47,672 nt of DNA from Neomelitea salexigens DSM 19753 (GTDB taxonomy: Bacteria > Pseudomonadota > Gammaproteobacteria > Pseudomonadales > Spongiibacteraceae), in assembly GCF_000422345.1 (NCBI RefSeq), contig NZ_AULP01000015.1, forward strand, positions 1-47,672, given 5' to 3'. This document shows, piece by piece, positions 1,745-47,672 of this stretch. The notes under the pieces are model-generated. The model searched no databases, had not been told where the DNA came from, and worked only from the letters and a program-made list of their open reading frames with translations. The position numbers and the translations under genes are program-made. Within the stretch, counting starts at the first letter, position 1. The number at the start of each line of letters is the position of its first letter.

Positions 1745-2320
1745 ATGCCAGACGTTGCCCCATCACGAACCATAGCGTTTCCAACACCGAAGCAACTTGC
1801 TGCGTGGCTAGAGGTTAATCATGCCAGTGAGAGTGAGTTGTGGGTGAAGATTTTTAAGAAGCAGTCGTCAGTGACTAGTGTGACCTGGGATGAGGTGGTG
1901 ATTGAGGCCTTGTGTTGGGGATGGATCGACGGGGTAAAGAAGTCGCTTGATGAGCAGGCGTATCTTCAGCGGATTACGCCGCGCAAGGCGCGCAGTAGTT
2001 GGTCGAAGCGGAATCGGGCTCATGTGGAGCGTTTGATCGACGAGGGTCGCATGCAGGAGCCGGGGTTGGTGCATGTTCGCGCGGCGCAGGCGGATGGGCG
2101 TTGGGAAAACGCCTATGCGGTGAGTGAGATGACGGTGCCGGAGGATTTTCTGGCGGCGCTTGAAGGCGAACCGACGGCGAAGTCGTTTTTTGATACGTTG
2201 AATAAGGCGAACCGTTTTGTGATTGCCTACGGTTTGATCAGTGCCAAAAAACCGGAGACGCGGCAGCGGCGTTTTGCCAAATACCTAACCATGCTGGCAA
2301 ACGAGGAAAAGCCGAAGTAA
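1745..2320 (+). CDS. YdeI/OmpD-associated (OmdA) family protein
   Basis: The 191-residue protein matches the YdeI/OmdA family. The N-terminus FPTPKQLAAWLEVNHASESELWVKIFKK, the block EALCWGWIDGVKK, and ITPRKARSSWSKRNRAHVERL are typical. The C-terminal OmdA part has the pattern FFDTLNKANRFVIAYGLISAKKPETRQRR. Members have been linked to resistance to cationic peptides or bacteriocins, but no biochemical activity is certain. The gene begins about 20 bases after attC-like site 3 with only a weak ribosome-binding site (agagaa). It could be a final cassette lacking its attC or the first chromosomal gene beyond the array. Family assignment is confident, function is not. Confidence 0.85.
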   Translation: MPDVAPSRTIAFPTPKQLAAWLEVNHASESELWVKIFKKQSSVTSVTWDEVVIEALCWGWIDGVKKSLDEQAYLQRITPRKARSSWSKRNRAHVERLIDEGRMQEPGLVHVRAAQADGRWENAYAVSEMTVPEDFLAALEGEPTAKSFFDTLNKANRFVIAYGLISAKKPETRQRRFAKYLTMLANEEKPK

Positions 2321-2439
2321 CTGCAAGACGGGCAGTGGTTTGTCGATGGCGCTTGGCTGGTCTGCCCAGATTCCGATACCATTCGCTCTTTTTTTGCGTA
2401 TCACCCCATTTCTCGAAATCGATCTCCAGGACTTTTAAC

Positions 2440-2877
2440 ATGAAATTGAATGTCTATCTTTCCGGCGAAATCCATACGGACTGGCGGGAGCAAATTATTG
2501 CTGGCTGCAAGGGCAGTGGTATTACATTTTCATCGGCGGTGACGAATCATGAGGCCAGTGATGCCGCGGGTGATGTGTTGGGCGCGGAGGAGAACAGCTT
2601 TTGGCGCGATCACAAGTCGGCAAAGGTGAATGCGATGCGGATCTCCACGCTGATCGAGCAGTGCGATATCGCGGTAATCCGCTTTGGCGACAAGTATAAG
2701 CAGTGGAACGCGGCCTTTGACGCGGGGTACTGCGCGGCGAAGGGTAAGCCCTATATCACGCTGCATGGTGAGGAGATTATTCACCCATTGAAAGAGGTGG
2801 ATGCGGCAGCGTATGCCTGGGCGACGACACCAGAGCAGGTAGTGGAGATGCTTACCTACATTGTTGCTGAGTCGTAG
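2440..2877 (+). CDS. ytoQ: YtoQ-family protein
   Basis: The 145-residue product begins MKLNVYLSGEIHTDWREQI and contains the YtoQ hallmarks VTNHEASD, FWRDHKSAKVNAMR, and IRFGDKYKQWNAAFDAG. These recall nucleoside 2-deoxyribosyltransferase-like folds, in which the GEIHTDW segment and AFDAGYCAAKGKPYITLH form a nucleotide-binding half. The enzymatic role of YtoQ is not established. The start at 2440 has aggac about nine bases upstream; the frame is open further upstream to about 2335, but that extension looks non-coding. Length matches the family (about 145-150). A hairpin terminator follows. Confidence 0.9.
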   Translation: MKLNVYLSGEIHTDWREQIIAGCKGSGITFSSAVTNHEASDAAGDVLGAEENSFWRDHKSAKVNAMRISTLIEQCDIAVIRFGDKYKQWNAAFDAGYCAAKGKPYITLHGEEIIHPLKEVDAAAYAWATTPEQVVEMLTYIVAES

Positions 2878-2902
2878 TTTGTTGGTGTTTTGAGGGGTGA
2901 AG

Positions 2903-2946
2903 GCTGAGCTGTCGCGGTGGTTAACTGCGCCAGCTCACCTTTTTTC
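2903..2946 (+). terminator. Rho-independent terminator after ytoQ
   Basis: The arms tgagctg (2905-2911) and cagctca (2931-2937) form a stem with a 19-base loop, followed by six T residues. The position right after ytoQ and before the convergent ligase gene fits. The long loop makes it only moderately certain. Confidence 0.5.
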
Positions 2947-2956
2947 AAGCCTGGCG

Positions 2957-4507
2957 TTAATTAATAGCCCGTTCCTGGTTTTCCCAGTAGGGTTCGCGCA
3001 GCACTTTTTTCAGAATTTTCCCGGTTGGGTTTCTCGGCAGTTCGGCAAACACTTTGAGCTGGCGTGGAATCTTGTAGCCTGCTAGGTCATTGCGTAAGAA
3101 CTCGATCATCTCCGTTTCGTTTAGCTGCTTGCCCTCGGCAAGCACCACGCAGGCCAGTGGCGTTTCGCCAAAGTTTTCGCAGGGAATGCCCACCACGGCA
3201 ACATCGGCCACGGCCGGGTGTTGGCTGAGGGCGTTTTCGATCTCGATAGGATAGATATTTTCGCCGCCGCTAATAATCATGTCTTTAATGCGGTCTCGCA
3301 GGAAAATATAACCGTGTTCGTCGATCACCGCGGAGTCGCCGGTGTGCACCCAGCCGCCGGCCAGGGTTTCGGCGGTCGCGTCGGGGCGGTTGTAGTATTC
3401 CATCATGTTGGCGTCGCAGCGGATGAGTAGTTCGCCGGTTTCGCCATTGGGTAGTGGGTTGCCGTCGCGGTCGACCACTTTCACGTCAACGCCCGCTTGG
3501 GGTCGACCGCAGGACGCCAGCAGTTCGGGGGCGTCGTTCGCTGCGCGGCGATGATCGTCTGCCGAGAGTGACACGACAGCGCCGCAGGTCTCGGTCATGC
3601 CGTATACCTGATAGAAGTTGCAGTCGAATACCTCCATCGCCGCTTGCAATAGTGCGCTGTTGATGGGCGAGGCGCCGTACACAATTTGCCGCAGGTGGCT
3701 GAAGTCGCGTTGGCGCAGGTCGGGCACCATATGGATCAGTGCCATGATCATCGCGGGAACCATAAAGGTGTTTTCAATTTTATAACGCTCAAGATCTTCT
3801 GCGATTTTAAAGGGGTCGAAGGTCTTGTGGAGTACCACGCTGGCGCCGGATAACACCGGCAGGATCAGTGTGCCGGCACCGCCGATATGGAAGTTGGGCG
3901 CGCTAACGAGATCGCGGCCGCCAGGCCCGGACTTAACCTCCCAGGACGCGCTGGTCATGCAGTACAGCGACAGGATGTTTCGCTGGCTGAGCACCACCCC
4001 TTTGGGGCGGCCGGTGGTGCCGCTGGTGTAGAGCTGGAGTAGCGCTGCCGAGCTGTCACTGCTGTTGTCGACTTCGCCAGCATCACTCAGCGAGGACAGC
4101 CACTCTGTCCAGCTTTGGTTGTGGCTGGCAAGGATGTTCAGCCCGGGCTGAGCCTGTTGCACAGCGTCGCTCAAGGTGGTCAGTTCTTCGTCGGCAACAA
4201 TCAGTAATTTTGCTTCGCTGTCTTGTACAACGTAGCGAATTTCTTCCGGGGCAAGGCGGTAATTTACCGCACATAACACCGCGCCAATGCGGCTGCAGGC
4301 CAGCAGCACGGTGAGAAAGTCCGGGCAGTTTTGACACATGATGGCGATGCGGTCACCGGGTTGAATGCCCCGCGCCAGTAACCCCGCAGCAATGCGGTGA
4401 GATTGCTCGGTAATGTCGCCGTAGCTGAGGACGGTGTCTTGGTAAATGATGCAGTCGCTGCTAGCACGCACCCGCGCGTGATAGTCGACGAACTGGTGAA
4501 TCTTCAT
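2957..4507 (-). CDS. Acyl-CoA ligase (AMP-forming, fatty acyl-CoA synthetase family)
   Basis: The 516-residue enzyme would activate a fatty or aromatic carboxylic acid to its CoA thioester in the cytoplasm via an acyl-adenylate. The adenylation P-loop YTSGTTGRPKG is at residues 160-170. The VYGMTE motif follows in the middle, then the hinge region with GWVHTGDSAVIDEHGYIFLRDR. GGENIYPIEIEN and the C-terminal catalytic Lys in NPTGKILKK are also present. The start at 4507 was chosen for its aaggag ribosome-binding site eight bases upstream; the open frame extends 121 codons further without protein-like sequence. It lies 82 bases downstream of an AraC-type regulator on the same strand, probably in one operon. 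The substrate cannot be told from sequence; nearby beta-oxidation genes favour a fatty acid. Confidence 0.92.
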   Translation of the reverse strand: MKIHQFVDYHARVRASSDCIIYQDTVLSYGDITEQSHRIAAGLLARGIQPGDRIAIMCQNCPDFLTVLLACSRIGAVLCAVNYRLAPEEIRYVVQDSEAKLLIVADEELTTLSDAVQQAQPGLNILASHNQSWTEWLSSLSDAGEVDNSSDSSAALLQLYTSGTTGRPKGVVLSQRNILSLYCMTSASWEVKSGPGGRDLVSAPNFHIGGAGTLILPVLSGASVVLHKTFDPFKIAEDLERYKIENTFMVPAMIMALIHMVPDLRQRDFSHLRQIVYGASPINSALLQAAMEVFDCNFYQVYGMTETCGAVVSLSADDHRRAANDAPELLASCGRPQAGVDVKVVDRDGNPLPNGETGELLIRCDANMMEYYNRPDATAETLAGGWVHTGDSAVIDEHGYIFLRDRIKDMIISGGENIYPIEIENALSQHPAVADVAVVGIPCENFGETPLACVVLAEGKQLNETEMIEFLRNDLAGYKIPRQLKVFAELPRNPTGKILKKVLREPYWENQERAIN

Positions 4508-5787: not shown

Positions 5788-6996
5788 ATGAGCAACAGTG
5801 CTTTTATCTACGACGCGGTAAGAACACCGCGTGCCAAAGGCAAAATGGGTTCGCCCCTGAGTCAGGTGAAGCCCGTCGATCTTCTTGCTGGCCTGCTAAA
5901 CGGCCTGCGTGACCGCCACGGTTTAGATACCGCCCTGGTGGATGACGTAGTCATGGGCTGTGTAACGCCAGTGGGTGAGCAGGGTTCCTGTATTGCGAAA
6001 ACCGCGGTGATGAAGGCGGGCTGGGATGAGTCAGTGGCCGGTGTTCAGCTGGACCGCTTCTGCGCTTCCGGTTTGGAAGCTGTGAACCTGGCGGCGATGA
6101 AGATTGCCTCGGGCTGGGAAGAGCTGGTGGTTGCCGGTGGCGTGGAAAGCATGTCTCGCGTGCCCATGGGTGCCAACGGCGGCGCCTGGGGTGAAGACCC
6201 GCAGACCGCATCAGATACCGCGTTTGTTCCCCAGGGTGTGGGCGCAGACTTGATTGCGACGATGGAAGGCTTTAGCCGCGAAGACGTCGACGCCTTTGCG
6301 GTTCGCTCACAAGAGCGCGCGGCCGCGGCCCGCGAGGCCGGTTACTTTGACGGCTCGGTGATTCCGGTGAAAGACGGCAACGGCATGGTCATCCTGCAGC
6401 GCGACGACTTTATCAAGCCGGGCACCACTGTAGAGAGCCTGAGCAAGCTGAAGCCCTCCTTTGAGATGCTTGGCGGCATGGGTTTTGACGATATCGCCTT
6501 GAGCAAATACCCCCACGTTGCGCGTATTAATCACGTTCACCACGCGGGTAACTCCTCAGGTATTGTCGACGGCGCAGCCGCGGTATTGATCGGCAGCGAA
6601 GCAGCCGGCGCAAAATTGGGCCTGAAGCCCCGCGGCCGCGTAGTGGCGACAGCGGTTACCGGAACCGAGCCTACCATTATGTTAACGGGCCCTGGCCCTG
6701 CCACGTTTAAGGTGCTGGAAAAAGCCGGTATGACGATCGATCAGATCGACCTGTTTGAAATCAACGAAGCGTTTGCATCGGTGGCGATGCGTTTCCAAAA
6801 AGACACGCAAGCCCCCTGGGAAAAGATCAATGTAAACGGTGGCGCCATTGCAATGGGCCACCCCCTAGGCGCGACCGGTGCCATGCTGATCAGCACAGTA
6901 CTGGATGAACTGGAGCGTCGCCAACAGCGCTTTGGCTTGGTGACCTTGTGTGTGGGCGGCGGTATGGGTATCGCAACGATTGTTGAGCGAGTGTAA
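5788..6996 (+). CDS. Acetyl-CoA C-acyltransferase (thiolase)
   Basis: The 402-residue protein is a thiolase that cleaves 3-ketoacyl-CoA with CoA, releasing acetyl-CoA, the last step of beta-oxidation. The acylated nucleophile is Cys92 in DRFCASG. The general base is His358 in [10 protein letters not shown], and the second active-site Cys is Cys388 in LCVGGGMG. The start at 5788 begins the conserved [18 protein letters not shown]; sequence upstream in the same frame is unlike thiolases. Only a weak gagag ribosome-binding site is present. Forty-six bases downstream the multifunctional hydratase-dehydrogenase follows, giving a two-gene beta-oxidation operon with the thiolase first, like fadI-fadJ rather than fadBA. 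Chain-length specificity is unknown. Confidence 0.93.
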
Positions 6997-7042
6997 GCGC
7001 GCAGCCCTGCATTTTTCAGATTTAACAGAATAGGTAAGTCCG

Positions 7043-9190
7043 ATGACTGGAACATTCAACTACGAAAAAGATAGCGACAACATCGTAACGGTGACTATGG
7101 ACATGAGCGGTCCGGTCAATGCGATGAACGACGAATATGTAGCGCTGATGGGTGAGACTATTGACCGCCTGGAAGCGGAGCGCGAATCCATTGCCGGTGT
7201 GGTACTCACGTCTGCAAAAAGCAGTTTCTTTGCTGGCGGTGATATCAAAAGCATGCTCAGCCTGAAGCCCGGTGAGGGCGAGGCAGAGATGTTTGAGATG
7301 AACCTCAAGATCAAAGGCATGCTGCGCCGCATGGAGAAACTGGGTCGCCCAGTGGTTGCGGCCATTAACGGTGCGGCGCTCGGCGGCGGTTACGAGATTT
7401 GCCTGGCCTGCCACCACCGCGTTGCACTCGACAGCAAGGCCGTACAAGTGGGCCTGCCGGAAGTGAGCCTGGGCTTGCTGCCCGGCGGTGGCGGTATCGT
7501 GCGCATGGTGAACAAATTTGGTGTTGAGCGCGCCATTATGCCGCTGCTGGAAGGCACCCGCTTTAATGCCAAGAAAGCACTGGAAGCCGGTTTGGTTGAA
7601 GAGCTGGCTGACGACGTGCCAAGCATGATCAGCAAAGCCAAGGCGTGGATCAAAGCCAACCCAGAGGCGATGAACCCCTGGGATGCGAAGGGCTTTAAAA
7701 TTCCTGGCGGCAACGCCAAGAACCCGAAGATCACCCAAATGCTGCAGGGTGCTAACCCCATGCTGTTCCAAAAAACGCGGGGCTTGGTGCCAGCGCCCGT
7801 TAAGATTTTGGATGTGATTGCGGATGCTCTGCGTGTCGACTTTGACACCGCAATGGAAATTGAGGCGCGGGTTTTTGTTGGCTTGGTGACCACGCCAGTT
7901 GCCAAGAACCTGATGAGCTTCTTCCTGCAAATGAATCAGGTGAACGGCGGCGGCAGTCGCCCGGCAGGCATCGAGAAAACCGCTGTGAAGAAAGTCGGTA
8001 TTCTCGGCGCCGGTATGATGGGACAGGGGATTGCCTATGTGTCAGCGATGGCTGGCATCGAGGTCATCCTGAAAGATATCAGTCAGGATGCGGCGGACAA
8101 GGGTAAGGCTTACAGCGATACACTGCTGACCAAGCGTGTTGCCCGTGGACGCATGACCGAAGAGAAAAAAGCATCAGTGCTGGGCCTGATTACCCCTACG
8201 GATAACGCCGACCTGCTCGAAGGCTGCGACCTGATTATTGAGGCAGTGTTTGAAAACGTTGACCTTAAACATAAGATCACGGAAGAGCTGCAGGGCAAGC
8301 TGGCTGAAAACGGCGTGTGGGGCTCAAACACCTCAACCCTGCCTATTACCCTGCTGGCAGAGCCGGCAAAGCGCCCGGAGAACTTCATCGGTATTCACTT
8401 CTTCTCGCCCGTCGACAAGATGCCACTGGTGGAAATTATTACCGGCGAACAGACTTCTGACGAAACCCTGGCGCGAGCGTTTGACTACGCTCAGCAGATT
8501 CGCAAAACGCCGATTGTGGTCAACGACTCGCGTGGCTTCTTTACCTCGCGCGTATTCGCTACCTATATCGAGGAAGGGGCGCAACTCATTGAAGAAGGCG
8601 TTGATCCGGTATTGATCGAAAATCTGGGTCGCGCTGTGGGGATGCCGGTTGGCCCGCTCGCCGTACAAGACGAAGTGAGTCAGCAATTGGCGGTGAAGGT
8701 GAGCGAAACGAATCGCGAACTGGACGAGCGCCTCGGTGACAAGTTTGCCGGAGAAACGGCCAGCTACCGCATTGCCAGCAAAATGCTGAATGAATACGGC
8801 CGCGGCGGTCGCGCCCATGGCGGCGGTTACTACGACTACCCAGAAGGTGGCGAAAAGCAGTTGTGGTCGGAGCTTTACTCGCTGTACCACAAGCCCGAGG
8901 TGGACCTGCCCGTAGACGATATTAAAGACCGTTTGCTGTTTAGGCAGATTGTTGAGTCGCTGCGCTGCTACGAAGAAAACGTGGTGAACCAAGTGGCGGA
9001 TGCCAATATCGGCTCCATAATGGGCATTGGTTTCCCGCCTCACACCGGGGGTGTTTTGCAGTACGTGAATACCTACGGCTTGAAAGCCTTTGCCACGCGA
9101 TTGGCCGAGCTGGAAAGCCGCTACGGCGAGCGCTTCGCTGCACCGCAAGTCCTGCTCGACAAGGCTGAAAAAGGCGAGACCTTCGCCTAA
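7043..9190 (+). CDS. Multifunctional 3-hydroxyacyl-CoA dehydrogenase / enoyl-CoA hydratase (FadB/FadJ-like)
   Basis: The 715-residue protein fuses two activities. The N-terminal crotonase domain (about residues 1-190) hydrates enoyl-CoA and carries the oxyanion-hole sequence AALGGGYEICLA and the Glu in GLPEVSLGLLPGGGG. The NAD-binding 3-hydroxyacyl-CoA dehydrogenase domain starts near residue 318 with KVGILGAGMMGQGIAY. It continues with SNTSTLPIT, the catalytic His region FIGIHFFSPVDKM, and NDSRGFFTSR, followed by two C-terminal dehydrogenase domains. The length is normal for FadB/FadJ. The start at 7043 has an aggtaag upstream. It forms a complex-type pair with the thiolase just upstream. 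Its stop codon overlaps the end of the convergent lysR gene by four bases. Confidence 0.93.
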   Translation: MTGTFNYEKDSDNIVTVTMDMSGPVNAMNDEYVALMGETIDRLEAERESIAGVVLTSAKSSFFAGGDIKSMLSLKPGEGEAEMFEMNLKIKGMLRRMEKLGRPVVAAINGAALGGGYEICLACHHRVALDSKAVQVGLPEVSLGLLPGGGGIVRMVNKFGVERAIMPLLEGTRFNAKKALEAGLVEELADDVPSMISKAKAWIKANPEAMNPWDAKGFKIPGGNAKNPKITQMLQGANPMLFQKTRGLVPAPVKILDVIADALRVDFDTAMEIEARVFVGLVTTPVAKNLMSFFLQMNQVNGGGSRPAGIEKTAVKKVGILGAGMMGQGIAYVSAMAGIEVILKDISQDAADKGKAYSDTLLTKRVARGRMTEEKKASVLGLITPTDNADLLEGCDLIIEAVFENVDLKHKITEELQGKLAENGVWGSNTSTLPITLLAEPAKRPENFIGIHFFSPVDKMPLVEIITGEQTSDETLARAFDYAQQIRKTPIVVNDSRGFFTSRVFATYIEEGAQLIEEGVDPVLIENLGRAVGMPVGPLAVQDEVSQQLAVKVSETNRELDERLGDKFAGETASYRIASKMLNEYGRGGRAHGGGYYDYPEGGEKQLWSELYSLYHKPEVDLPVDDIKDRLLFRQIVESLRCYEENVVNQVADANIGSIMGIGFPPHTGGVLQYVNTYGLKAFATRLAELESRYGERFAAPQVLLDKAEKGETFA

Positions 9191-38814: not shown

Positions 38815-39003
38815 ATGTTTTCCGCTTCTGAAACCCCGAGTTCTGCGACGCCGGCAATGTCTAAGCTGGAGTTTAACAAGTTGCAGAAGCGCCTCCGCCG
38901 GCACACCGGGCAGGCGATAGAGGATTTTCAGATGATCGAAGAGGGCGACCGGGTAATGGTCTGCCTGTCGGGTGGTAAATTATGTCCGGTAAATATCTTG
39001 TAA
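38815..39003 (+). pseudogene. ttcA: ttcA 5' fragment, cut in its PP-loop by a mobile island
   Basis: This is the start of the native tRNA 2-thiocytidine synthetase. After a variable N-terminus it reads [19 protein letters not shown] and [16 protein letters not shown], then departs from all TtcA sequence at 38980. It runs only seven more codons (LCPVNIL) to a stop. The cut falls between the Lys and the Asp of the PP-loop SGGKDS, the ATP-pyrophosphatase motif, so the roughly 60-residue product cannot be active. The 3' part of the native gene is not in the window. Codon use is GC-rich like that of the core genes. ATG 38815 is preferred; ATG 38773 overlaps the -10 box. An intact ttcA lies 5.8 kb downstream in the island. 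Confidence 0.93.
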
Positions 39004-39083
39004 ACATTGGCTGAGAGCTGCCAACTGTGCTGCTAGGGTTATTGCATCTGTCACGACATGCTAATCTTGTTGGTATTACCTAG

Positions 39084-39113
39084 TTTTTCTCTTTTCTCTT
39101 TTCTCTTTTCTCC
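39084..39113 (+). repeat. Pyrimidine heptamer tandem repeat (CTCTTTT) near the island's left end
   Basis: Three to four direct copies of a CTCTTTT heptamer form a polypyrimidine tract about 105 bases inside the left end of the island. It lies just upstream of the probable gin promoter. It may be a binding site for the recombination proteins or a slippage-prone tract; the role is not known. Confidence 0.75.
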
Positions 39114-39148
39114 GTTTGTAGTTGACCCTCACTGTTGATTGATTATTT

Positions 39149-39177
39149 TTGACAAAATGTAAGCTTCAGCATACAGT
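39149..39177 (+). promoter_or_regulatory. Probable promoter of the gin operon
   Basis: TTGACA (39149-39154) matches the -35 consensus exactly. It is followed after 17 bases by TACAGT (39172-39177), four of six matches to the -10 consensus. It lies about 37 bases upstream of the first recombinase start, so the island can transcribe its operon without the host ttcA promoter. Confidence 0.6.
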
Positions 39178-39213
39178 CGTATAAAAATTATTGCCCGGTG
39201 CGATTTGTCAAGA

Positions 39214-40473
39214 ATGCTTGATGCGACCTTGAAGCGTTACAAATGGAATAAGAAGACCTTCTTCGCCATCGTTAATGGACATTCATGCCCGTTCGAGCCG
39301 TACGTTTCGGCATATCTCAATACGCTCAGTTCATACGCAAATAGCACACAGCACCGTTACGGCAGAGATCTGCTATTCATCCTCAAGTACTTTGATCGAA
39401 AGGGCATTGATCTGACTGGCCGAATAGCCTCCGGCGACCTGATTAGCATGGCTGAGTATTCGGATTTTCATACGCAGTGTGCCTTGAGCTCTGATATCGA
39501 CCTTGACTCAAAGGTGGTTCCGCTCTTGTCCCACGCTGAGAGCAAAACGTTCAGGAATATCATGGCGTCAAACAACTTTGTCGCCAGCAAGGTCTCCAGC
39601 GAGACTCAGCGTGGACGACTGAACCGGCTTCGAAGCTATATAACGTGGTTGTTTGAGCAATTCCATGATCCACTTTCCGTCGGTGAGAAGCTCGAACGCA
39701 ATTTCGAGAAATTAACAATGAAGATGCTCCAAGATGAGCGTTCATTGAATGTCGTTGAGGCGCATGTGAATCGACACCCAACTAAAGATGCGATTCCGCC
39801 AGACGTCTTTTGCAAGTTAATTGAGATCATTCGACCATCGTCCCCTAACAACCCATTCACCCAACGTAACCGATTGCGGAACTACCTGGTCGTCACATTA
39901 CTTCTCGACACGGGTATTCGGCGAGGCGCACTGGCAAAGTTAAAGATATCGGATCTACGCTCTGACAGCTCCGGTGCGGCGCTTTGGATTTATCCAGAGC
40001 GCGATGACGTATCGGACCCACGGTTGGAAAGACCGAACCAAAAAACCAAAGCTCACCTCGCGGCGCTGAACCCCACGGTCATGGATGCCCTTTTGTTCTA
40101 CATAGAAAGTGACCGGAAACTGATATGCGGATCAGCCGAGAACGACTTTGTCTTTGTAAGTAACAGCAATGCGAAGGGCACAAAAGGACAGCCTCTTGCT
40201 GCGAAATCAATCAATGAAGTGTTCTTCACGCTTTCAAAGGTGCTTGGTTACCGCGTACACCCACATTTGATGCGGCACATGTGGAACGACCTTTTTGATG
40301 ACAATAGCGATCATCAGAACTTCACATCACAACAGGTTGAAGATGCCAGAAAGTACGCAATGGGGTGGTCCGCTAACTCGGCAATGTCGGACATATACAA
40401 CGATCGAAGAACCTATCAGAAAGTTCGGAAAATCATGCAGTCCCACCAAGATCGTGTGGATGGTGCGAAATGA
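39214..40473 (+). CDS. ginA: Tyrosine recombinase GinA-like (first of trio)
   Basis: The product (419 residues from ATG 39214; TTG 39205 would add three) is a phage-integrase-family recombinase. The N-terminal half contains a SAM-like core-binding domain. In the catalytic half the first Arg lies in DTGIRRGALAKL (about 233-244), the Lys in NQKTKAHLAAL, HPHLMRH gives the HxxR box (351-354), GW is at 384-385, and the nucleophile Tyr is about 395 in SDIYNDRR. All six active-site positions appear to be present. It overlaps ginB by four bases (ATGA). Composition is AT-richer than the core genes. It would act with GinB, GinC and GinD in insertion and excision of the island. Confidence 0.88.
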   Translation: MLDATLKRYKWNKKTFFAIVNGHSCPFEPYVSAYLNTLSSYANSTQHRYGRDLLFILKYFDRKGIDLTGRIASGDLISMAEYSDFHTQCALSSDIDLDSKVVPLLSHAESKTFRNIMASNNFVASKVSSETQRGRLNRLRSYITWLFEQFHDPLSVGEKLERNFEKLTMKMLQDERSLNVVEAHVNRHPTKDAIPPDVFCKLIEIIRPSSPNNPFTQRNRLRNYLVVTLLLDTGIRRGALAKLKISDLRSDSSGAALWIYPERDDVSDPRLERPNQKTKAHLAALNPTVMDALLFYIESDRKLICGSAENDFVFVSNSNAKGTKGQPLAAKSINEVFFTLSKVLGYRVHPHLMRHMWNDLFDDNSDHQNFTSQQVEDARKYAMGWSANSAMSDIYNDRRTYQKVRKIMQSHQDRVDGAK

Positions 40474-42104
40474 ATGCCCTGTTGCAACAGGCAATGCGGT
40501 CGCATGAGCCAAACACAATTACCGCTCAAAGCGGCCTTAAAGTTGACGTAACCGCCGATTCTTGGCAGCTGCTCGCGACGACCAGTAAAGGTTGGAAGTT
40601 TGATATGAGCTGGGTCTGGAATACGGCTATTTCGGATGAAGACAGAAGCGACATGCTAACGGTCTATTCGCACTACGCGACGTCGAAGGCTGCCGGTACG
40701 ACCTCAACAATTGTATCTAATACCAAACTATACCTATCATCAGGAATCCCACCGTTGATTAAGTTGAGGTCGCTGTGGAGCGGCCTTCCGGTGTCTCATA
40801 AGAAGGGGCTTAACCAATTCTTTGGCACGCTTTGCAAACTTGGATACAAGCAATACAACGATTACCACGGATTCACGAAAGCCAACTTGGACAAGGAAAA
40901 AACACTCACATTTGATTCGAAAAGAGGTGCGCTAAGTCACCAAGAGTTTGATAGCTTTTGCGCCGCTTTGAACCTGCGCCTCCAGTCGATTGACTGGAAT
41001 GCAGACCGCTCGCTCGAATTTTTCCAATCACAATCCTTCAGCCAAATTTGCCGTTCCATTAGTAATAAACTAGCGGCAATCACTGTTCGTCGCCCCATAC
41101 AATTGTCGATGCTCAAATGGATAGATGTGATTCCAGTAGGCAGTGGGTTTGAAGACCAACGAATCGACCCATCCCAGGAAGTTGGAAATATTGGCATCGA
41201 CCAACTCCAGATAAGGTTTTTTCATGCAAAGGCTAGCGGCAGATCGTGGAGGACGGCACCAGAGAGGTTCCCGGTTGCTCTCAACGCGCAAAGCTCAGAG
41301 CTAATCGCCAGTTACAAACGGCTCTATATGCATGGTGTCCAGCTCTGGCTGAAAAATAGCGGTTGTCCGGTCACCCATGAAGAGACGCGTGATTTTTTGC
41401 CTCATATGCCGATGTTCCCGTTAACTGGCTTGTTCAATGAAAATATTGGCTCGATTGAGAGCTTGAGGTCGCTGTTTACTCAAGAGTCTCGTGGATTTCA
41501 TGTCAACGAATCTGCAATAGCGATGAGCATGAGATACGTTGCAGCTGAATCCAGCCGGACGAAGGATTGCACAGTGACGTCGAACAGAATTCGGCATACA
41601 GTGCTGACTCGGGGCGCACAGGCGGGCTACACCGCAGCGACGTTAGCAAAGATCACAGGAGTTACTGAGCCCGCGGCTCGGCATTACATTGACCTTGACT
41701 ACCGATCGCGTCGGATGATCGACGAACTCTATGATGGATCGGAGTTTTTAGCTGCTGTATTCAGCGATCCACTGGAGAGAGTCTCAGGCAAAGATGCGGA
41801 GGTCCTCGATCATCAGTTCAACAGCGTCGGCGGCATAAGAGATAAGCAAAGTTGCAACTCTTGCTCGGCTGTTACCGGGCGACCGATTGGCTGCTACGGG
41901 TGCAACAACTTTCGACCAATTCTGGAAGCTGATCACGCCGGAGTGCTTGAGCTGGCTGAACAGAAGCTGGCAGCCAATAGCAAAAAGCTACTTTCGCCCG
42001 TCGAAAAGCTCAGTGTGGAGAAGCTTACAAAACAGGTCGCGTGGATCAAGCGAACGATAGACGTGTGTAATCAAGTGCTGGAGGTACGACGTGGCGTTGA
42101 ATAA
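40470..42104 (+). CDS. ginB: Tyrosine recombinase GinB-like (second of trio), with C-terminal cysteine motif
   Basis: The 544-residue protein is a diverged tyrosine recombinase. Arg207/208 in AAITVRRPIQLSML is the likely first Arg. The HxxR region reads SNRIRHTVLTRG, with Asn372 where His is usual and Arg375 kept. The nucleophile is probably Tyr406 in AARHYIDLD. Beyond the catalytic domain there is a CxxC-x9-CxxC motif (Cys462, 465, 475, 478; SCNSCSAVTGRPIGCYGC), probably a small zinc site. It overlaps ginA by four bases and ginC by 14. Such trios of unlike recombinases act together. The Asn substitution suggests a specialised role rather than an independent integrase. Confidence 0.85.
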   Translation: MNALLQQAMRSHEPNTITAQSGLKVDVTADSWQLLATTSKGWKFDMSWVWNTAISDEDRSDMLTVYSHYATSKAAGTTSTIVSNTKLYLSSGIPPLIKLRSLWSGLPVSHKKGLNQFFGTLCKLGYKQYNDYHGFTKANLDKEKTLTFDSKRGALSHQEFDSFCAALNLRLQSIDWNADRSLEFFQSQSFSQICRSISNKLAAITVRRPIQLSMLKWIDVIPVGSGFEDQRIDPSQEVGNIGIDQLQIRFFHAKASGRSWRTAPERFPVALNAQSSELIASYKRLYMHGVQLWLKNSGCPVTHEETRDFLPHMPMFPLTGLFNENIGSIESLRSLFTQESRGFHVNESAIAMSMRYVAAESSRTKDCTVTSNRIRHTVLTRGAQAGYTAATLAKITGVTEPAARHYIDLDYRSRRMIDELYDGSEFLAAVFSDPLERVSGKDAEVLDHQFNSVGGIRDKQSCNSCSAVTGRPIGCYGCNNFRPILEADHAGVLELAEQKLAANSKKLLSPVEKLSVEKLTKQVAWIKRTIDVCNQVLEVRRGVE

Positions 42105-44418
42105 GTACCTTGTCCGTACTCATGCACTAATTCAAAAGTACAAGGATGAAGCGCCCTTCAAGCAGTTCCAAAACCTAGATGGCCAATTGGCAACTTTCGA
42201 TAATCTTGTCTGGTTTTACATTGATCCAAACAATGGCAAGAGAACTCGGATTTTAACCGGAAGGCACGGCACAAGAGGATCTGGATCGGCAGGTTCAGCC
42301 CCTAAATACGCATTGCCAGAGCCATACGGAGACTTGTTGAAGGTTTTCGTGATTGAGGCGTTTAATGCCTCTGTTTTCGCCTCGGAGATACAGGCACGTA
42401 TCGGAGCGGCGCGATACTTACTCACAAACATGCAGGGTAACCTCCATACACAAACAGGATCAACGATCATCGAATGTTTCGGGGAGACTAGGCTTGATCG
42501 GATGGTGGTATTCCTTGAGTTCTGTGAGCGACAAGGGCTGATGCCTCGTGCATCCGATCAGGTTCGTCGTAATATCAGGGATAAACGTGATCGGACGGGT
42601 CACAGTGTCGAAGCCACCCGCAGAGAGAAAATGGCCAATGAGGAGGTCATAAGAGCTGCTGGGAACATATATGCAAAAACAATCACCAGTCTCAAACAAG
42701 GAAATGCCGGACAAGGCTGTTTTCGAGATGCATTGACTACATTTATTGTTTTGCTTTGCTGCGCATCACCGAATCGAGCCGGGGCTGAAGTGCCACTTCT
42801 TGTCAATCAGAAGCTCCAAAGTTATTCAGAGGATGGTCGAGCAGATGTTTTTTATCTTGATTGGCCGGGTAGCAAAGGCTATCAAGACAATCGAACCCAT
42901 ATTCTTTCGGCACTTAGCGGTCATGTTGAGAAAGGGATAAACTACTTCTCAAAAGCCTGTCAGCCAGGTCGAATCGTAGCTTCCTATTACTCTCGGCCAG
43001 ACCAAACACTTGGGCAGCTACTAAAAGGGTTTCCAATCGACCCGGAAAGAAAAGTGCGTATAGACCTGAATCGTAAACCTCATCTTTTCACTTTAGGTTA
43101 CGCATTAGGTTTCTATGACGTTGATACAGAAGTTCATGTATTTATTCATGACGCTGAAGATCAGGGGGCACCGTACGAAAGAAGCAGACCGATAAAACTA
43201 GCCACACGCAAGAGCTGCTGGAAGTCCAAGTACATATTCGAACTGCAGATAGAGGATGAAATTTCATCAAACGCGATGAGATTGGCAAAACGACCCGGTA
43301 TTGAGCGTTTGTTGGGAGTCAATTTTAGTTTTTCTCAGGCTCCGAGGTTTGACCCAAATCAGAATCGTTTAATTTCTATTGGACAGCTTGAGAAAGTAGT
43401 GCGTGATTTGCAGAGAGAGGCATTCCCCAGCTTCCCTGCAGGTTTTTCTACTGGTGATTTGAATAGCGTCAAAATGGACGTTGCACTCTTCTGTGTTTTA
43501 GGTCATCAGTTCTTTAAGAACGGCGCTAATAGAAAAAGGGGAGGCGTGCCAGGCCAGCAGGGATACTACCATATACTGACCCCGCGCTCTCTTTCAACGA
43601 TGGCTAGTTGGGGGCTTGGTAAAAGTGGTGATATTTTCCTACGTCACGGTTTCAGTTCTAACTACTTTCTGAATCTACATCAACTCCGTCACTATACGAA
43701 TACCATTGCCGACAAAAGCGGTATTCCCAACGAAGTCTTGACAGCTTGGTCGGGTCGCAAAAGTCGCGAGCAAACATACGAGTACATTCATACCAGCCAT
43801 GCTGAGCGCAGTTCAAGAGTGGCGGGCGTTCAGAAAAAGGCGACCGAAACCACCCAACCGATTCGCTGGGTCTCAAGCAACGAAATTGCGCGGGAATTTA
43901 ACTTGCCCGCAAGTGTTACTTCGACGGGTCTTTGCACTCAGAATCTGGTTGTGATTCCGTGCGAATACCTGAACGATTTTGTATCGAGTTGCTTCATGTG
44001 TCCGAATGCCTGCCATGTAGCTGGAGATGGTGACGCTATCGATACACTCGAAAAGGACTGTCAATTCCAGCACCGGCGCCTGGAGGCGGTTAAAAATGAT
44101 AATCGCCTCGGTGCCTCACGTGCAATGCAGGAGTGGTTCGTTCTCCATAACTTTAATACACAAGTCCTAGCTCAGCTCGTCCAGCTAATGAAAGATATGC
44201 CAGTCGGCACTGTGATCTCTTTCAGTGAAAAAGCTCGACAGTTCAATCTCCTCGATGCTAAGTCCAAGAAACTTACACAAGTTTTGGCCAAGCTTACGGA
44301 TTCCCATAAGGATTTGCAGAACGCTCTTGCAAGACAAGAAAAGGCTACAGACGAGCCTCGCTCCAATAGAGATTTGAAGGAATTAATGGCCAAATACAGC
44401 CTTGCGGAGACAGAGTAA
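42091..44418 (+). CDS. ginC: Large tyrosine recombinase GinC-like (third of trio)
   Basis: The 775-residue protein starts at GTG 42091 within the end of ginB. Arg229 in ASPNRAGAEVPLL is the probable first active-site Arg. HQLRHY (530-535) is a canonical HxxR box, and the Trp region AWSGRKS is followed by the Tyr in QTYEYIHTSHAERS (563 or 565). The catalytic part is unusually expanded, with about 300 residues between the first Arg and the HxxR box. After it comes a cysteine-rich segment (SSCFMCPNACHV and a later Cys/His), probably metal-binding, and a helical C-terminus. Its stop codon is followed immediately by the ginD start. Size and domain layout fit the third recombinase of GInt operons. 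Confidence 0.85.
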   Translation: MALNKYLVRTHALIQKYKDEAPFKQFQNLDGQLATFDNLVWFYIDPNNGKRTRILTGRHGTRGSGSAGSAPKYALPEPYGDLLKVFVIEAFNASVFASEIQARIGAARYLLTNMQGNLHTQTGSTIIECFGETRLDRMVVFLEFCERQGLMPRASDQVRRNIRDKRDRTGHSVEATRREKMANEEVIRAAGNIYAKTITSLKQGNAGQGCFRDALTTFIVLLCCASPNRAGAEVPLLVNQKLQSYSEDGRADVFYLDWPGSKGYQDNRTHILSALSGHVEKGINYFSKACQPGRIVASYYSRPDQTLGQLLKGFPIDPERKVRIDLNRKPHLFTLGYALGFYDVDTEVHVFIHDAEDQGAPYERSRPIKLATRKSCWKSKYIFELQIEDEISSNAMRLAKRPGIERLLGVNFSFSQAPRFDPNQNRLISIGQLEKVVRDLQREAFPSFPAGFSTGDLNSVKMDVALFCVLGHQFFKNGANRKRGGVPGQQGYYHILTPRSLSTMASWGLGKSGDIFLRHGFSSNYFLNLHQLRHYTNTIADKSGIPNEVLTAWSGRKSREQTYEYIHTSHAERSSRVAGVQKKATETTQPIRWVSSNEIAREFNLPASVTSTGLCTQNLVVIPCEYLNDFVSSCFMCPNACHVAGDGDAIDTLEKDCQFQHRRLEAVKNDNRLGASRAMQEWFVLHNFNTQVLAQLVQLMKDMPVGTVISFSEKARQFNLLDAKSKKLTQVLAKLTDSHKDLQNALARQEKATDEPRSNRDLKELMAKYSLAETE

Positions 44419-44838
44419 ATGGCGCTACCCAGCATCTCAGCGCAAGACCAGCGGCGTATCGAGCGACTGATTTCCAACTGGAAAGGCAAACTGACTTGGA
44501 AACTGCTTGCGAAGGCGATTGAGCTTGAACTGGAGATCAAAACAACACGCCAAACGCTTTGTACCTATAGAGGAATTTACACTGCTTATTCGAACCGAAA
44601 AAGCGACCTTCGCGGCGTTACTCCTGAGGTTGTGGCTAGCATCACTCGGTCAGATATTAATGCCCAGGAGCGCATAGCACGCCTCGAAAAGGAAGTTCGC
44701 GATTTGGAAGAAAAGAACGCCCAACAATTACGAATGATTGATCGTATTTTTGCCAACGCAACCGCTATTCCGAATCTTGACCTTCGAGATCTCGTAAAGG
44801 AAAGACCTGAAGAACTTAATGTGAGACCGAAAGTATGA
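44419..44838 (+). CDS. ginD: Small helical/coiled-coil protein GinD-like
   Basis: The 139-residue protein begins at the base after the ginC stop. The N-terminal half is basic and helical ([25 protein letters not shown]) and could bind DNA. Residues about 75-105 ([20 protein letters not shown]) form a clear coiled coil, suggesting dimerisation. In GInts the fourth gene, a small helix-loop-helix-like protein, is needed for both integration and excision, probably as an architectural or bridging factor. Its stop overlaps the start of the next gene, a full ttcA, by four bases (ATGA). No closer family is recognised. Confidence 0.8.
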
Positions 44839-45677
44839 CAAACGCTGGAAAACGCCTTAAAAAGATATATCGTTTGGTAGGGAGAGCCGTTTCAGATTAT
44901 CAAATGATAGAGGATGGCGATAAAATTATGGCGGCGATAAGTGGGGGGAAAGACTCATTTTTAATGCTAGATGCACTGCTGCACTTACAGCGAGTCGCAA
45001 AAGTAAAATTTGAGGTTGTTGCTGTAAATATGGATCAAAAACAACCAGGCTTCCCTGAGGATGTGCTTCCAAGATATTTGGAAGAAAACAATATCCCATA
45101 CTTTATTCTGGAAAAAGATACCTATTCTATCGTCAAAGCGAAAGTTCCAGAGGGAAAGACAACTTGTGCGCTCTGTAGTCGCCTGAGAAGGGGCAGCCTT
45201 TACGGTTTTTCGGAAGAGATCGGGGCAACAAAAATTGCTCTGGGTCATCACATGGACGACATTGTTGAGACAATGTTTCTCAATATGTTTTTTCAGGCTA
45301 AATTATCAGCTATGCCGCCAAAATTGTTGAGCGACGACAAGCGGAATATCATTATCCGTCCTCTTGCATATTGTCGTGAAAAAGATATCGAAAAGGTTGC
45401 TAGGGATCGAGCCTATCCGATAATACCCTGCAATTTGTGTGGTTCCCAAGAAGGCTTAAAGCGCCAAGCAGCCAAAACAATGTTGGAAGAGTGGGACGCA
45501 CAAGACCCGGATCGTGTGGTTAATATTTTCCGCAGTCTTCAGACGGTTAAGCCCTCTCAGCTTGCCGACACTAGTCTATTTGACTTTGCCTCGCTCCATA
45601 TTGAGCGTCCTGCTCTGATACCCGTAACAAATCTTGCGGACGAGGTGAATACTGAAAGCCTCTTGAAGGAAGCCTAG
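44835..45677 (+). CDS. ttcA: Intact foreign tRNA 2-thiocytidine synthetase TtcA, carried by the island
   Basis: The 280-residue protein is a complete TtcA, which uses ATP and an iron-sulfur cluster to thiolate cytidine 32 of tRNA. The PP-loop is SGGKDS at residues 36-41. CxxC is at Cys111/Cys114 ([12 protein letters not shown]), followed by [11 protein letters not shown] and the second pair Cys199/Cys202 ([10 protein letters not shown]). LGHHMDD has Met where Arg is usual. It is diverged from the native N-terminal fragment at 38815, has a shorter N-terminus and is AT-richer. Its ATG overlaps the ginD stop, so it is the fifth, coupled gene of the gin operon. It would restore the modification that the insertion abolished; this is inference. 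Confidence 0.93.
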
Positions 45678-45777: not shown

Positions 45778-47302
45778 CTAGAGTAATACTCTAAATTGCC
45801 TCTTGTCGGCATCCGATGATTTCAGGATACGGTACTCCATCCCGCTTGCCACCGCGATTTGCTGGGCAAAGTCCTTCTTGGCCTGTACAACAGCGTCCTC
45901 GATCTGGTTGTCGGCCTTCACCTCGACGATAACGTACTTCAGGCTGCCATCTGCTTCTTCACGTTGAAAAATGAAGTCAGGGTAGTAGCTGCGCACAGTC
46001 CGTGAATCGGGGTCGATGTACTGTATGAAGAAATCGGACTGGCCGTGTGTCAGCATTCCGGTGAAGTAGAGCTTTTTGACACGCTTCTCGCGTAGCAGAT
46101 CCCAGAATAGCCAGTTCTCCGAGCCGGAGTCGAAGCAGTAGGTGTCGAGGTGGAAGCTCTTGGCGCGCTCTTCATCGTTGATCTTCTCGTCGTGCATCCG
46201 AACGATCTTATCCTTCGCCGCCGACATCTCGTAGTAGCCGTTCGGGGGCAGCTTAATCAGATCGACCTCGTGCTCCTCGGTTTGCTGCGATTCGTCCAAG
46301 TCGTAGAGCTGGCGGAACAGGCGCGGTATGATTTCGTCGTAGAGAAGCTCGTTGAACTCATTGGTGATGGCCACCAGCTCGTCGGAACCCTCTTTCGTCT
46401 TGGCTAGCAGTTCCTCGATCTCCAGCGGACACCGGTTCAGATAGCGGGATACCTCGGCCACAAGCGATAGTTGTGAGAAGGTTCGCTTCTTCCGGCGCGA
46501 TGTGAGATCAAAGGTGCGGCTGCCGGAAGCGAGTGCCGCGTCGACGGCGGTCAAACCATCCTGCTGAGTTTCGATCAGACGGTATTTCTCGACCAGTTCG
46601 CCCCACTTCTGCGCATCCGCTCGCTCGGGCATCAACGCTTGCCCCGTCAACAACTGCTTTTCGCGTATCTCGTATTGCTTTCGCACACGCACTAGCTTGA
46701 TCTTGACCGGCGGCTCAACCACGCGCACCTCCACGCGCTCCTTGTCCTTGCCGGTTTTCTGCAGCTCGTCCGCGCTGATGCGGAAGTTCTGCTGCAGCTC
46801 GTCGTTCAGGGTGTTGAGGTTGTCCTCGGAGAGGAAGACATTACCAGTGTGCTGAGCCTGCCCGATAGCCCTTAGACAGCGCATGGTGGCTTGAAGTACG
46901 AATACCTTCGATTTAGGCGAACGAAATAGTCCAACGCCAAACAGCGAGCGGCAGTTCCAGCCTTCCCGGCCCTTGTTGACCAGCAGGATGAACTGCTTTT
47001 CCGATCCTTCGGTGTCGAGCCGGTTAAATTCGCGGATGTCATCGTTAGTGGTAATCTTGCTGTCACCCACGTTGATCAGAATACGCGAGGTCGGGATGCC
47101 GTGTTTGAGAAGCGCTCGCTCCACAGCAGGTTTCAGCTCTTCGGTCAGCTCTTCAACTGTTGCGGCGAAGAACGCCAGTTTGGGCAGCAAGCCTTCCGGG
47201 CGCAGTTCGCCAGACTCTTTCAGGAAGTTCTCGATGGCGATGTCGACAAACTCGTCAGTGCGGGTGTTGGCGTAGCCGTGGAGCGTAACCTTCTTGAGGA
47301 AG
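45778..47302 (-). pseudogene. Type III restriction-like helicase-nuclease (Res), 5' end cut off by an IS
   Basis: The remaining 508 codons encode the C-terminal part of a Res-type superfamily 2 helicase with a nuclease. The open frame begins at the IS junction with FLKKVTLHGYANTRTDEF, upstream of any start codon; the first ATG at 47190 is internal. Seen are the second helicase domain (NKGREGWNCRSLFGVGLFRSPK, and LQATMRCLRAIGQ as motif VI) and a C-terminal PD-(D/E)xK nuclease core (YYPDFIFQ and IVEVKADNQ). Walker motifs of the first helicase domain are lost. No modification subunit is seen in the window. It is probably defence cargo of the island, now inactivated. Similar proteins include stand-alone DEAD/DEAH helicase-nucleases of phage defence. 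Confidence 0.88.

Positions 47303-47672
<370 letters not shown>

Follow-up and report, generated by a model that had tools for sequence, protein, structure and literature searches.

The window, that is, the whole stretch of 47,672 nucleotides analysed here, contains an insert which by its gene content and its ends is a GInt island, with ginABCD followed by a complete ttcA. The features of the region, from the interrupted native gene to the contig end, are as follows.

38815..38979, + strand: 5' fragment of the native ttcA, 55 codons, ending in SGGK (model NF007972)
38974..38979, + strand: putative 6-bp crossover (spacer) GGTAAA, the Gly-Lys codons (junctions read, crossover position putative)
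38980..38992, + strand: left end of the island, TTATGTCCGGTAA, an inverted repeat of the right end, TTACCGGATACAA (from the sequence)
39149..39177, + strand: promoter-like TTGACA-17-TACAGT upstream of ginA (consensus scan, 10/12; weak)
39205..40473, + strand: ginA, tyrosine recombinase (Phage_integrase PF00589, E 1.5e-10)
40470..42104, + strand: ginB, tyrosine recombinase, overlapping ginA by ATGA (site-specific integrase model NF041502, E 7.5e-22)
42091..44418, + strand: ginC, large recombinase-related protein (homology to GinC-position proteins of other GInts)
44419..44838, + strand: ginD, small protein (41% identical to the same-position protein in genome G184)
44835..45677, + strand: complete island ttcA, its start overlapping the ginD stop by ATGA (NF007972)
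45778..47190, - strand: cargo gene for a nuclease-like protein with a TnsA-like N-terminal domain (PF08722, E 4.6e-9)
47311..47670, - strand: partial rve-type IS transposase at the contig end (likeness to the copy in genome G010)

The earlier note had placed the insert among the GInts, and both gene content and ends bear this out. The four genes show the order and overlaps of a ginABCD operon, GinA and GinB fall into the families listed above, and all four have homology to other sets. Neither GinC nor GinD matches a Pfam or NCBIfam family at E 0.001; their names follow from the order of the genes and from their homologues at the same positions in other GInts. The promoter candidate upstream of ginA is weak, as a scan of the region returned 10 sites where 8.8 are expected. 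Downstream, the open frame of the nuclease-like cargo protein, which has no PADLOC match, extends up to the IS, and a 246-aa copy of the IS transposase in G010 matches PF00665 (rve, E 2.2e-28).

The native ttcA had been described as interrupted right after its SGGK codons, and the profile search agrees, with 38815-38979 matching the TtcA model NF007972 at positions 9-52 only (E 4.8e-16). The 3' part was expected beyond position 47672 and is missing there because the contig, C14, ends inside the IS-type transposase gene; it was located on contig C4 of the same genome (G000:C4:252721-253413, minus strand), where it begins with GKDS and covers profile positions 51-280. The continuity of the island across C14 and C4 is modelled on G010. 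With the junctions read and both pieces found, precise inactivation of ttcA by the island is supported. Nor is a short ttcA fragment the normal state in relatives, since 53 of 57 genomes have one TtcA match and no fragment. The GGTAAA spacer recurs where the native 3' part begins, and the same junction codon is shared by 12 chromosomal ttcA genes (G000, G010, G019, G184, G889 and seven more), which rules out chance. At all 12 sites with both ends read, the spacers are GGN AAR on both sides; the left and right spacers are different in six of them, every difference being synonymous.

The whole island is found in Spongiibacter pelagi, the copy in G010 being complete, with 21,643 bp between the junctions, and the island also occurs in a host of a different genus, where the ttcA gene has diverged but is cut at the same codon. 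It is 99.5% identical over 8.7 kb to that of G019, a 9.7-kb alignment with G010 that includes native flank gives 97.3%, and 13-kb right parts of the island are 98.8% identical, while the native ttcA pieces of the island hosts are only 72-90% identical to those of the window genome. A near-identical island in three hosts with diverged native ttcA genes indicates that it was transferred as one unit, each time into the same codon. The last 150-odd bp of the G010 island are 68% AT, against 50% for the island, in keeping with the tripartite structure of GInts. Insertion is likewise site-specific, at the same codon in the three hosts and with six shared bases at the ends, the short imperfect direct repeats of GInts being judged here on these six bases, where those of the GInt paper have 10 or more.

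With regard to the carried gene, the proposal that the island brings a complete, diverged ttcA overlapping ginD by ATGA is confirmed. Its 280-aa product scores 426.6 bits against NF007972 (cut-off 272; E 4.6e-128). All four aligned island copies retain SGGKDS, CxLC and CNLC, and SGGKDS with both CxxC-type motifs we take to be the motifs known for TtcA. The island TtcAs form a single clade (support 99/98; 11 island against 33 native rows). Among 22 measurable pairs of island ttcA genes, all from the Pseudomonas branch and not independent of one another, 18 have dN/dS values of 0.049-0.085, and the remaining four, which differ at 9-10 sites, give 0.133-0.178; these values show clear purifying selection on the carried gene in that lineage. 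Against other lineages the dS of the window copy is saturated, and within the Spongiibacteraceae all three copies are identical. Judged from these sequences, a role of the carried ttcA as replacement for the cut gene appears well supported.

The native copy is broken and the island copy is the sole complete TtcA in G000, G010, G019 and G184, which also speaks for an addiction gene, whereby loss of the island without precise excision would be punished once the native ttcA has been cut. This is nevertheless an unlikely explanation, as ttcA appears dispensable in E. coli, where a viable deletion is in use according to the part of PMC4632033 available, and no TtcA match at 1e-10 was found in 14 of the order's 390 genomes, among which several are nearly complete.

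The carriage of ttcA recurs in diverged lineages, and its coupling to the gin operon is not constant. The Gin proteins of G184 are only 30-42% identical to those of the window, but the target codon and the ginD-ttcA order are the same, and the native ttcA 3' part lies elsewhere in that genome. A DNA-pattern search recovered island-type TtcA in seven of 248 genomes (probable family, Pseudomonadaceae). All seven have a related GInt with GinC, a 5' piece ending in SGGK and a 3' piece beginning with GKDS, and their island ttcA lies at the far end, as the last gene before the right end. The coupling of ttcA to the recombinase operon put forward in the earlier note thus holds in the window and G184 lineages and fails in these seven third-lineage genomes and on two P. 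aeruginosa plasmids, in which the island ttcA is also last before the right end. The GInts that cut PP-loop genes form a GinC clade (100/99; 11 against 8 rows).

In the order survey of 390 genomes, in which genomes were judged by number of matches and best E and 19 were followed up, a ttcA split after SGGK with a GInt was found, among the matches listed, in G000, G010 and G184, each of which has a complete island TtcA (3/3). The seven pattern-found genomes are excluded from this frequency because they were retrieved by the island TtcA itself. The extra TtcA matches in the 19 genomes were weak and paralogue-type, contig-edge pieces or, in one genome, frame-shifted pieces. The same insertion is present in G889, on a contig that ends 555 bp past ginD; those 555 bp contain no ttcA, and no complete TtcA was found in this 87%-complete genome. 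A GinC search of 369 genomes of the class returned the window's own genome only. G166 was considered as a further case, with a 5' piece that ends in SGG and then diverges, a complete but unusual TtcA that reads SGGADS and, on a second contig, a fragment, but no gin genes were found, which makes it a possible relic at most.

Outside chromosomes, 48 plasmid records match TtcA. Among the five opened, the ttcA genes of the Shewanella, Acinetobacter and Salmonella plasmids and of one P. aeruginosa plasmid lie among chromosomal-type genes and were set aside; island-type TtcA is encoded on pCA98 and on pPA942, the latter found via GinC. On these two P. aeruginosa plasmids the island is inserted in a gene of the PAPS-reductase family instead of ttcA (for pCA98, read at one end only), so that the gene carried and the gene cut are not always counterparts; these islands may already be covered by the IncpRBL16/Tn6571 paper cited in PMC10121019. 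Five IMG/VR loci (L006-L010) with island-TtcA matches were rejected as ordinary ttcA genes with no gin genes, L006 and L009 being the native TtcA of P. aeruginosa. Neither GinC nor the island-TtcA pattern had a match in viral_contigs, GinC had none in phages at 1e-5, and E. coli genomes contain nothing close to the Pseudomonas island ttcA.

Retention of the gene on plasmids where ttcA is not cut, together with a motif common to the island TtcAs, GHHMDD (24 of 25 other native rows with the motif have GHH(R/K)DD and one diverged copy has GHHADD), might point to a variant enzyme kept for another use, for instance a different choice of tRNAs or the shielding of tRNA from a nuclease, with replacement as a side effect; this is quite improbable, given that the known TtcA motifs are retained and that the plasmid islands could have come from ttcA. 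Less probable still is ordinary cargo, that is, chance capture of ttcA at the ginD stop, GInt cargo stemming mostly from related bacteria: cargo from the ginD stop onwards is the GInt rule in the available part of PMC5385486 and the position of the carried ttcA varies, but the gene is a homologue of the cut one and forms one clade in PP-loop-cutting GInts that are 30-50% identical in GinC, and four of four ssb-adjacent GInts lack a second ssb in the fetched 10-20 kb.

The window thus very probably holds the left portion of a GInt island that interrupts ttcA and belongs to a lineage that targets PP-loop genes and carries its own TtcA. The recombinases of this lineage target the DNA encoding the PP-loop (SGGKDS), with a putative crossover inside the six bases of the Gly-Lys codons, so that insertion cuts the catalytic loop, whereas precise excision would restore the gene and leave a synonymous change at most. 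The island lineage has kept its own TtcA and passed the copy on together with the gin genes, the carried ttcA presumably being read from the gin operon in the window and standing last before the right end in the other branch. The carried TtcA would make s2C32 and thereby lower the cost of insertion, and the island may still be able to move. A crossover in the Gly-Lys codons of the PP-loop would account for entry into ttcA across genera, and occasionally into another PP-loop gene, with six-base exchanges that are synonymous. More tentatively, and with some doubt, we would extend this to a mobile lineage with a resident replacement for the gene it breaks, in which the Gly-Lys crossover is combined with swapping of a core tRNA-modification enzyme of the host and with self-sparing: recoding of the target bases around the PP-loop would protect the island's own copy. 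The PP-loop Ser codon is AGY in 10 of 11 island copies (G184 has TCG) against 1 of 21 native genes, although the AGY rows share ancestry and represent few independent changes. The left arm is TCG/TCC in 12 of 12 cut ttcA genes, compared with 10 of 21 that are intact (p 0.002, Fisher test), the rows being related and codon bias a confounder.

Elements that insert into genes usually choose gene ends or rebuild the gene end. Here a mobile lineage appears to strike a widespread enzyme family at its most conserved codons and to bring a whole enzyme with it. If true, this would explain how an element can exploit a site that is both conserved and functional at low cost and in a wide range of hosts, would be a clear example of a tRNA-modification enzyme being swapped by a mobile element, and would yield a directly testable target rule, namely the Gly-Lys codons of the PP-loop; behind a full ttcA in a genome annotation there may also be a broken native gene.

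As far as the available parts of the sources describe them, several known systems share some of these traits. The GInt islands (ginABCD; Tn6571 family, PMC5385486) are alike in the left-end ginABCD, the cargo, the AT-rich right end, site-specific insertion and an inferred 6-bp crossover. As GInt targets that paper names an ABC-transporter gene and the ends of ssb and of a ribonucleotide reductase gene, and the term ttcA is absent from its main text; in contrast, the target here lies inside the catalytic loop of PP-loop genes, which are inactivated, and the island carries a homologue of the gene it usually targets. The Rac prophage (PMC4632033) also integrates in E. coli ttcA, but it uses one integrase and enters the gene at its 5' end, producing a TtcA variant by fusion with four residues changed; no second complete ttcA gene is described in the portion available. 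Strand-biased circularizing elements (SEs, PMC10214605) resemble the island in having several recombinases, a 6-bp footprint and selected targets; that study places the proteins of SEs and GInts in separate clusters, and its text does not mention ttcA.

The earlier note did not know this coupling as a described arrangement. Our literature search found no paper on ttcA in GInts, but the principle has a precedent in Tn552-II of Staphylococcus aureus (tnpABC/tgl/bla, PMC12486829), where a recombinase operon is likewise followed by a target-gene-like gene. Compared by description, the two differ in tnpABC versus ginABCD and in the yolD-like target, unrelated to ttcA, and the available part of the paper describes one element, without phylogeny or selection test. 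The incoming crossover sequence is brought at one end, as here, and its authors suggest rescue of the disrupted target; Tn552-II is the nearest precedent for a carried target-gene-like gene.

The native ttcA gene of N. salexigens is broken off directly after its SGGK codons, as the earlier note had proposed, and the DNA directly 3' of 38979 is unrelated. The junction is followed by ginA, ginB, ginC and ginD in a row, with frames that overlap or abut, and then by a second, complete ttcA of 280 codons whose start lies inside the ginD stop codon, which bears out the coupling to ginD that had been read in the window. The window is contig C14, which stops at 47672, and the 3' remnant expected beyond the island was found on another contig of the same genome (C4), with GKDS as its first residues. 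GGTAAA was read at both junctions. Apart from two differences, the ends of the island, TTATGTCCGGTAA and TTACCGGATACAA, are inverted repeats of each other, and by its gene content and its ends the island is a GInt. Its main features, including the cargo read on the fetched stretches L017 and L018, are:

38815..38979, native ttcA 5' piece, last codons SGGK, TtcA model match limited to positions 9-52
window 45778-47670, L017 9341-20000 and L018 1-4025, genes carried as cargo: a nuclease-like gene that continues into an IS; an RND-type transporter, its adaptor and a MarR-type regulator; proteins of the thioesterase and P450 types; an AraC-type regulator

The same island is present in two relatives. 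When 57 genomes, including that of the window, were searched with the TtcA model, three had a 5' piece up to profile position 52, a 3' piece from position 51 and a second TtcA that is complete: the window's genome, Spongiibacter pelagi KMU-158 and the metagenome-assembled Spongiibacteraceae bacterium UBA5047, which belongs to another genus. As for short ttcA fragments in relatives without the island, a point raised in the earlier note, 53 of the 57 have a single TtcA match; the one genome with no match in this search is 70% complete. GinC matches at 100% in both relatives. The S. pelagi island lies entire on one contig (21,643 bp from junction to junction), and the two contigs of the window's genome, when aligned against it, leave ~0.6 kb uncovered within the IS. 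Among the three genomes the left parts of the island are 97-99.7% identical and the right parts ~99%, while the native TtcA pieces of the two relatives share 72-79% (5') and 72-90% (3') protein identity with those of the window's genome. These are therefore differing ttcA genes that the island entered at one and the same codon.

Window GinC had matches in six of 390 genomes of the order at 1e-10, and among 369 genomes of the class only in the window's own. One of the six, G184, is more distant: its Gin proteins are 30-42% identical to those of the window, the SGGK codons that close its native 5' piece adjoin the island end, its complete ttcA begins at the stop codon of ginD, and its native 3' piece is on a separate contig. 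Its ginC and ginD are separated by ~1 kb (L035, contig C20) that contains relics of foreign reading frames, so that this operon may be damaged or rearranged; one relic resembles a small gene found after ginD in other GInts. In G889, a third lineage with Gin proteins 39-55% identical, the insertion is the same; a complete TtcA was not found in this genome, which is 87% complete and whose contig ends 555 bp past ginD.

Island TtcAs have a common GHHMDD motif, whereas 24 of the 25 native rows having the motif read GHH(R/K)DD and the remaining one GHHADD. Of the 248 genomes searched in family f21, seven contain a 27-base pattern for the island motif, and none contains the reversed control. The native 3' pieces of the seven resemble P. 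aeruginosa TtcA (93-94% identical in six, 78% in one), and f21 was therefore taken as Pseudomonadaceae. GinC is present in all seven, the native 5' piece ending in SGGK adjoins ginA upstream, and the 3' piece starting GKDS lies 166-174 bp past the island ttcA, which is at the right end and not behind ginD. In the four genomes where a single contig holds both ends, inserts measure 25.6 to 106 kb. On the P. aeruginosa plasmid pPA942-IMP45, a GinC 40% identical to that of the window belongs to an island sitting at SGGK|DS of a gene with a PAPS-reductase domain that is intact in plasmid pWTJH17; the 3' part of this gene is present in 113 plasmid records, with the intact gene confirmed in one. A complete ttcA is the last gene of this island, and pCA98 shares its right end and ttcA; the left end of the pCA98 island was not found within the stretches read. 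The coupling to ginD holds in the window and G184, but not in the seven f21 genomes or on the two plasmids.

Both ends were read for 12 insertions, and in every one the six bases at each junction are GGN AAR (Gly-Lys). The left and right bases differ in six, always synonymously, and the crossover would fall exactly at these bases. This agrees with reports that GInts make staggered cuts of 6 nt and exchange variants of the spacer (PMC5385486) and that Tn552-II brings in its spacer (PMC12486829).

Island TtcAs form one clade (support 99/98; 11 island and 33 native rows), also in a smaller tree of four island and 26 native rows (97/95), and the 11 GInts cutting a PP-loop gene likewise group together by GinC (100/99), apart from eight other GInts. 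In the concatenated GinABC tree, as in the small TtcA tree, the element of the window and that of Pseudomonas group to the exclusion of G184; larger trees leave part of this order unresolved. The two histories are therefore compatible, short of proof that they run in parallel. Among 22 island ttcA pairs with computable dS above zero, all from the Pseudomonas branch and with kinship between pairs, dN/dS lay at 0.049-0.085 for 18 and at 0.133-0.178 for four with few differences. Comparisons across the three deep lineages show saturation at synonymous sites (pS 0.80-0.91), a pN of 0.21-0.29 and conserved catalytic motifs.

Several observations weigh against strong host dependence on the island. 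TtcA can be lost, since 14 of the 390 genomes of the order lack a match at 1e-10. Four surveyed GInts adjoin a complete ssb gene (SSB domain confirmed for two), and the 10-20 kb read there, less than whole islands, showed no further ssb. In G871 (L066, contig C411) a GInt breaks a DJ-1/PfpI-type gene, not among the targets named in the accessible part of PMC5385486, and no second copy is evident within the fetched stretch. As a side observation, in several GInts a small protein of ~143-146 aa (annotated as VPA1267 family in L070) holds the post-ginD slot that ttcA holds in the window and G184:

L036 8874-9305, small protein after ginD
L038 10162-10593, small protein after ginD
L066 8687-9127 (reverse-complement coordinates), small protein after ginD
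L070 11793-12230, small protein after ginD

Genome G166 possibly holds a relic of a ttcA-cutting island: at L053 (G166:C25) 2258-3127 and L054 (G166:C58) near 6965-7111 a ttcA 5' piece stops at SGG and then diverges, and another contig carries a complete, unusual TtcA (SGGADS, GHHADD, long branch) next to a ttcA fragment in inverted orientation; gin genes were not found. Separately, five IMG/VR contigs (L006-L010) end at or close to ttcA, two with P. aeruginosa TtcA, and the viral-type genes beside it point to a prophage site next to ttcA.

The insertion, the broken native frame and a conserved second enzyme are all present. We propose, as the most probable mechanism, that the Gin recombinases would insert a circle at the PP-loop DNA, costing the host its native ttcA, and that the carried TtcA, if expressed and active, would supply tRNA thiolation from the gin operon or the right end. 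Precise excision across the six junction bases would restore an intact ttcA. None of the 11 native 3' pieces read so far has lost its open frame, which is what recent or reversible insertions would predict.

The earlier note took the arrangement to be undescribed, and no report on ttcA in GInts was found in a literature search beyond whose reach most subscription papers lay. What is new is a target within a catalytic loop and a carried homologue of the usual target, both recurring across one GInt lineage; a carried target-like gene as such has a precedent in Tn552-II (PMC12486829).
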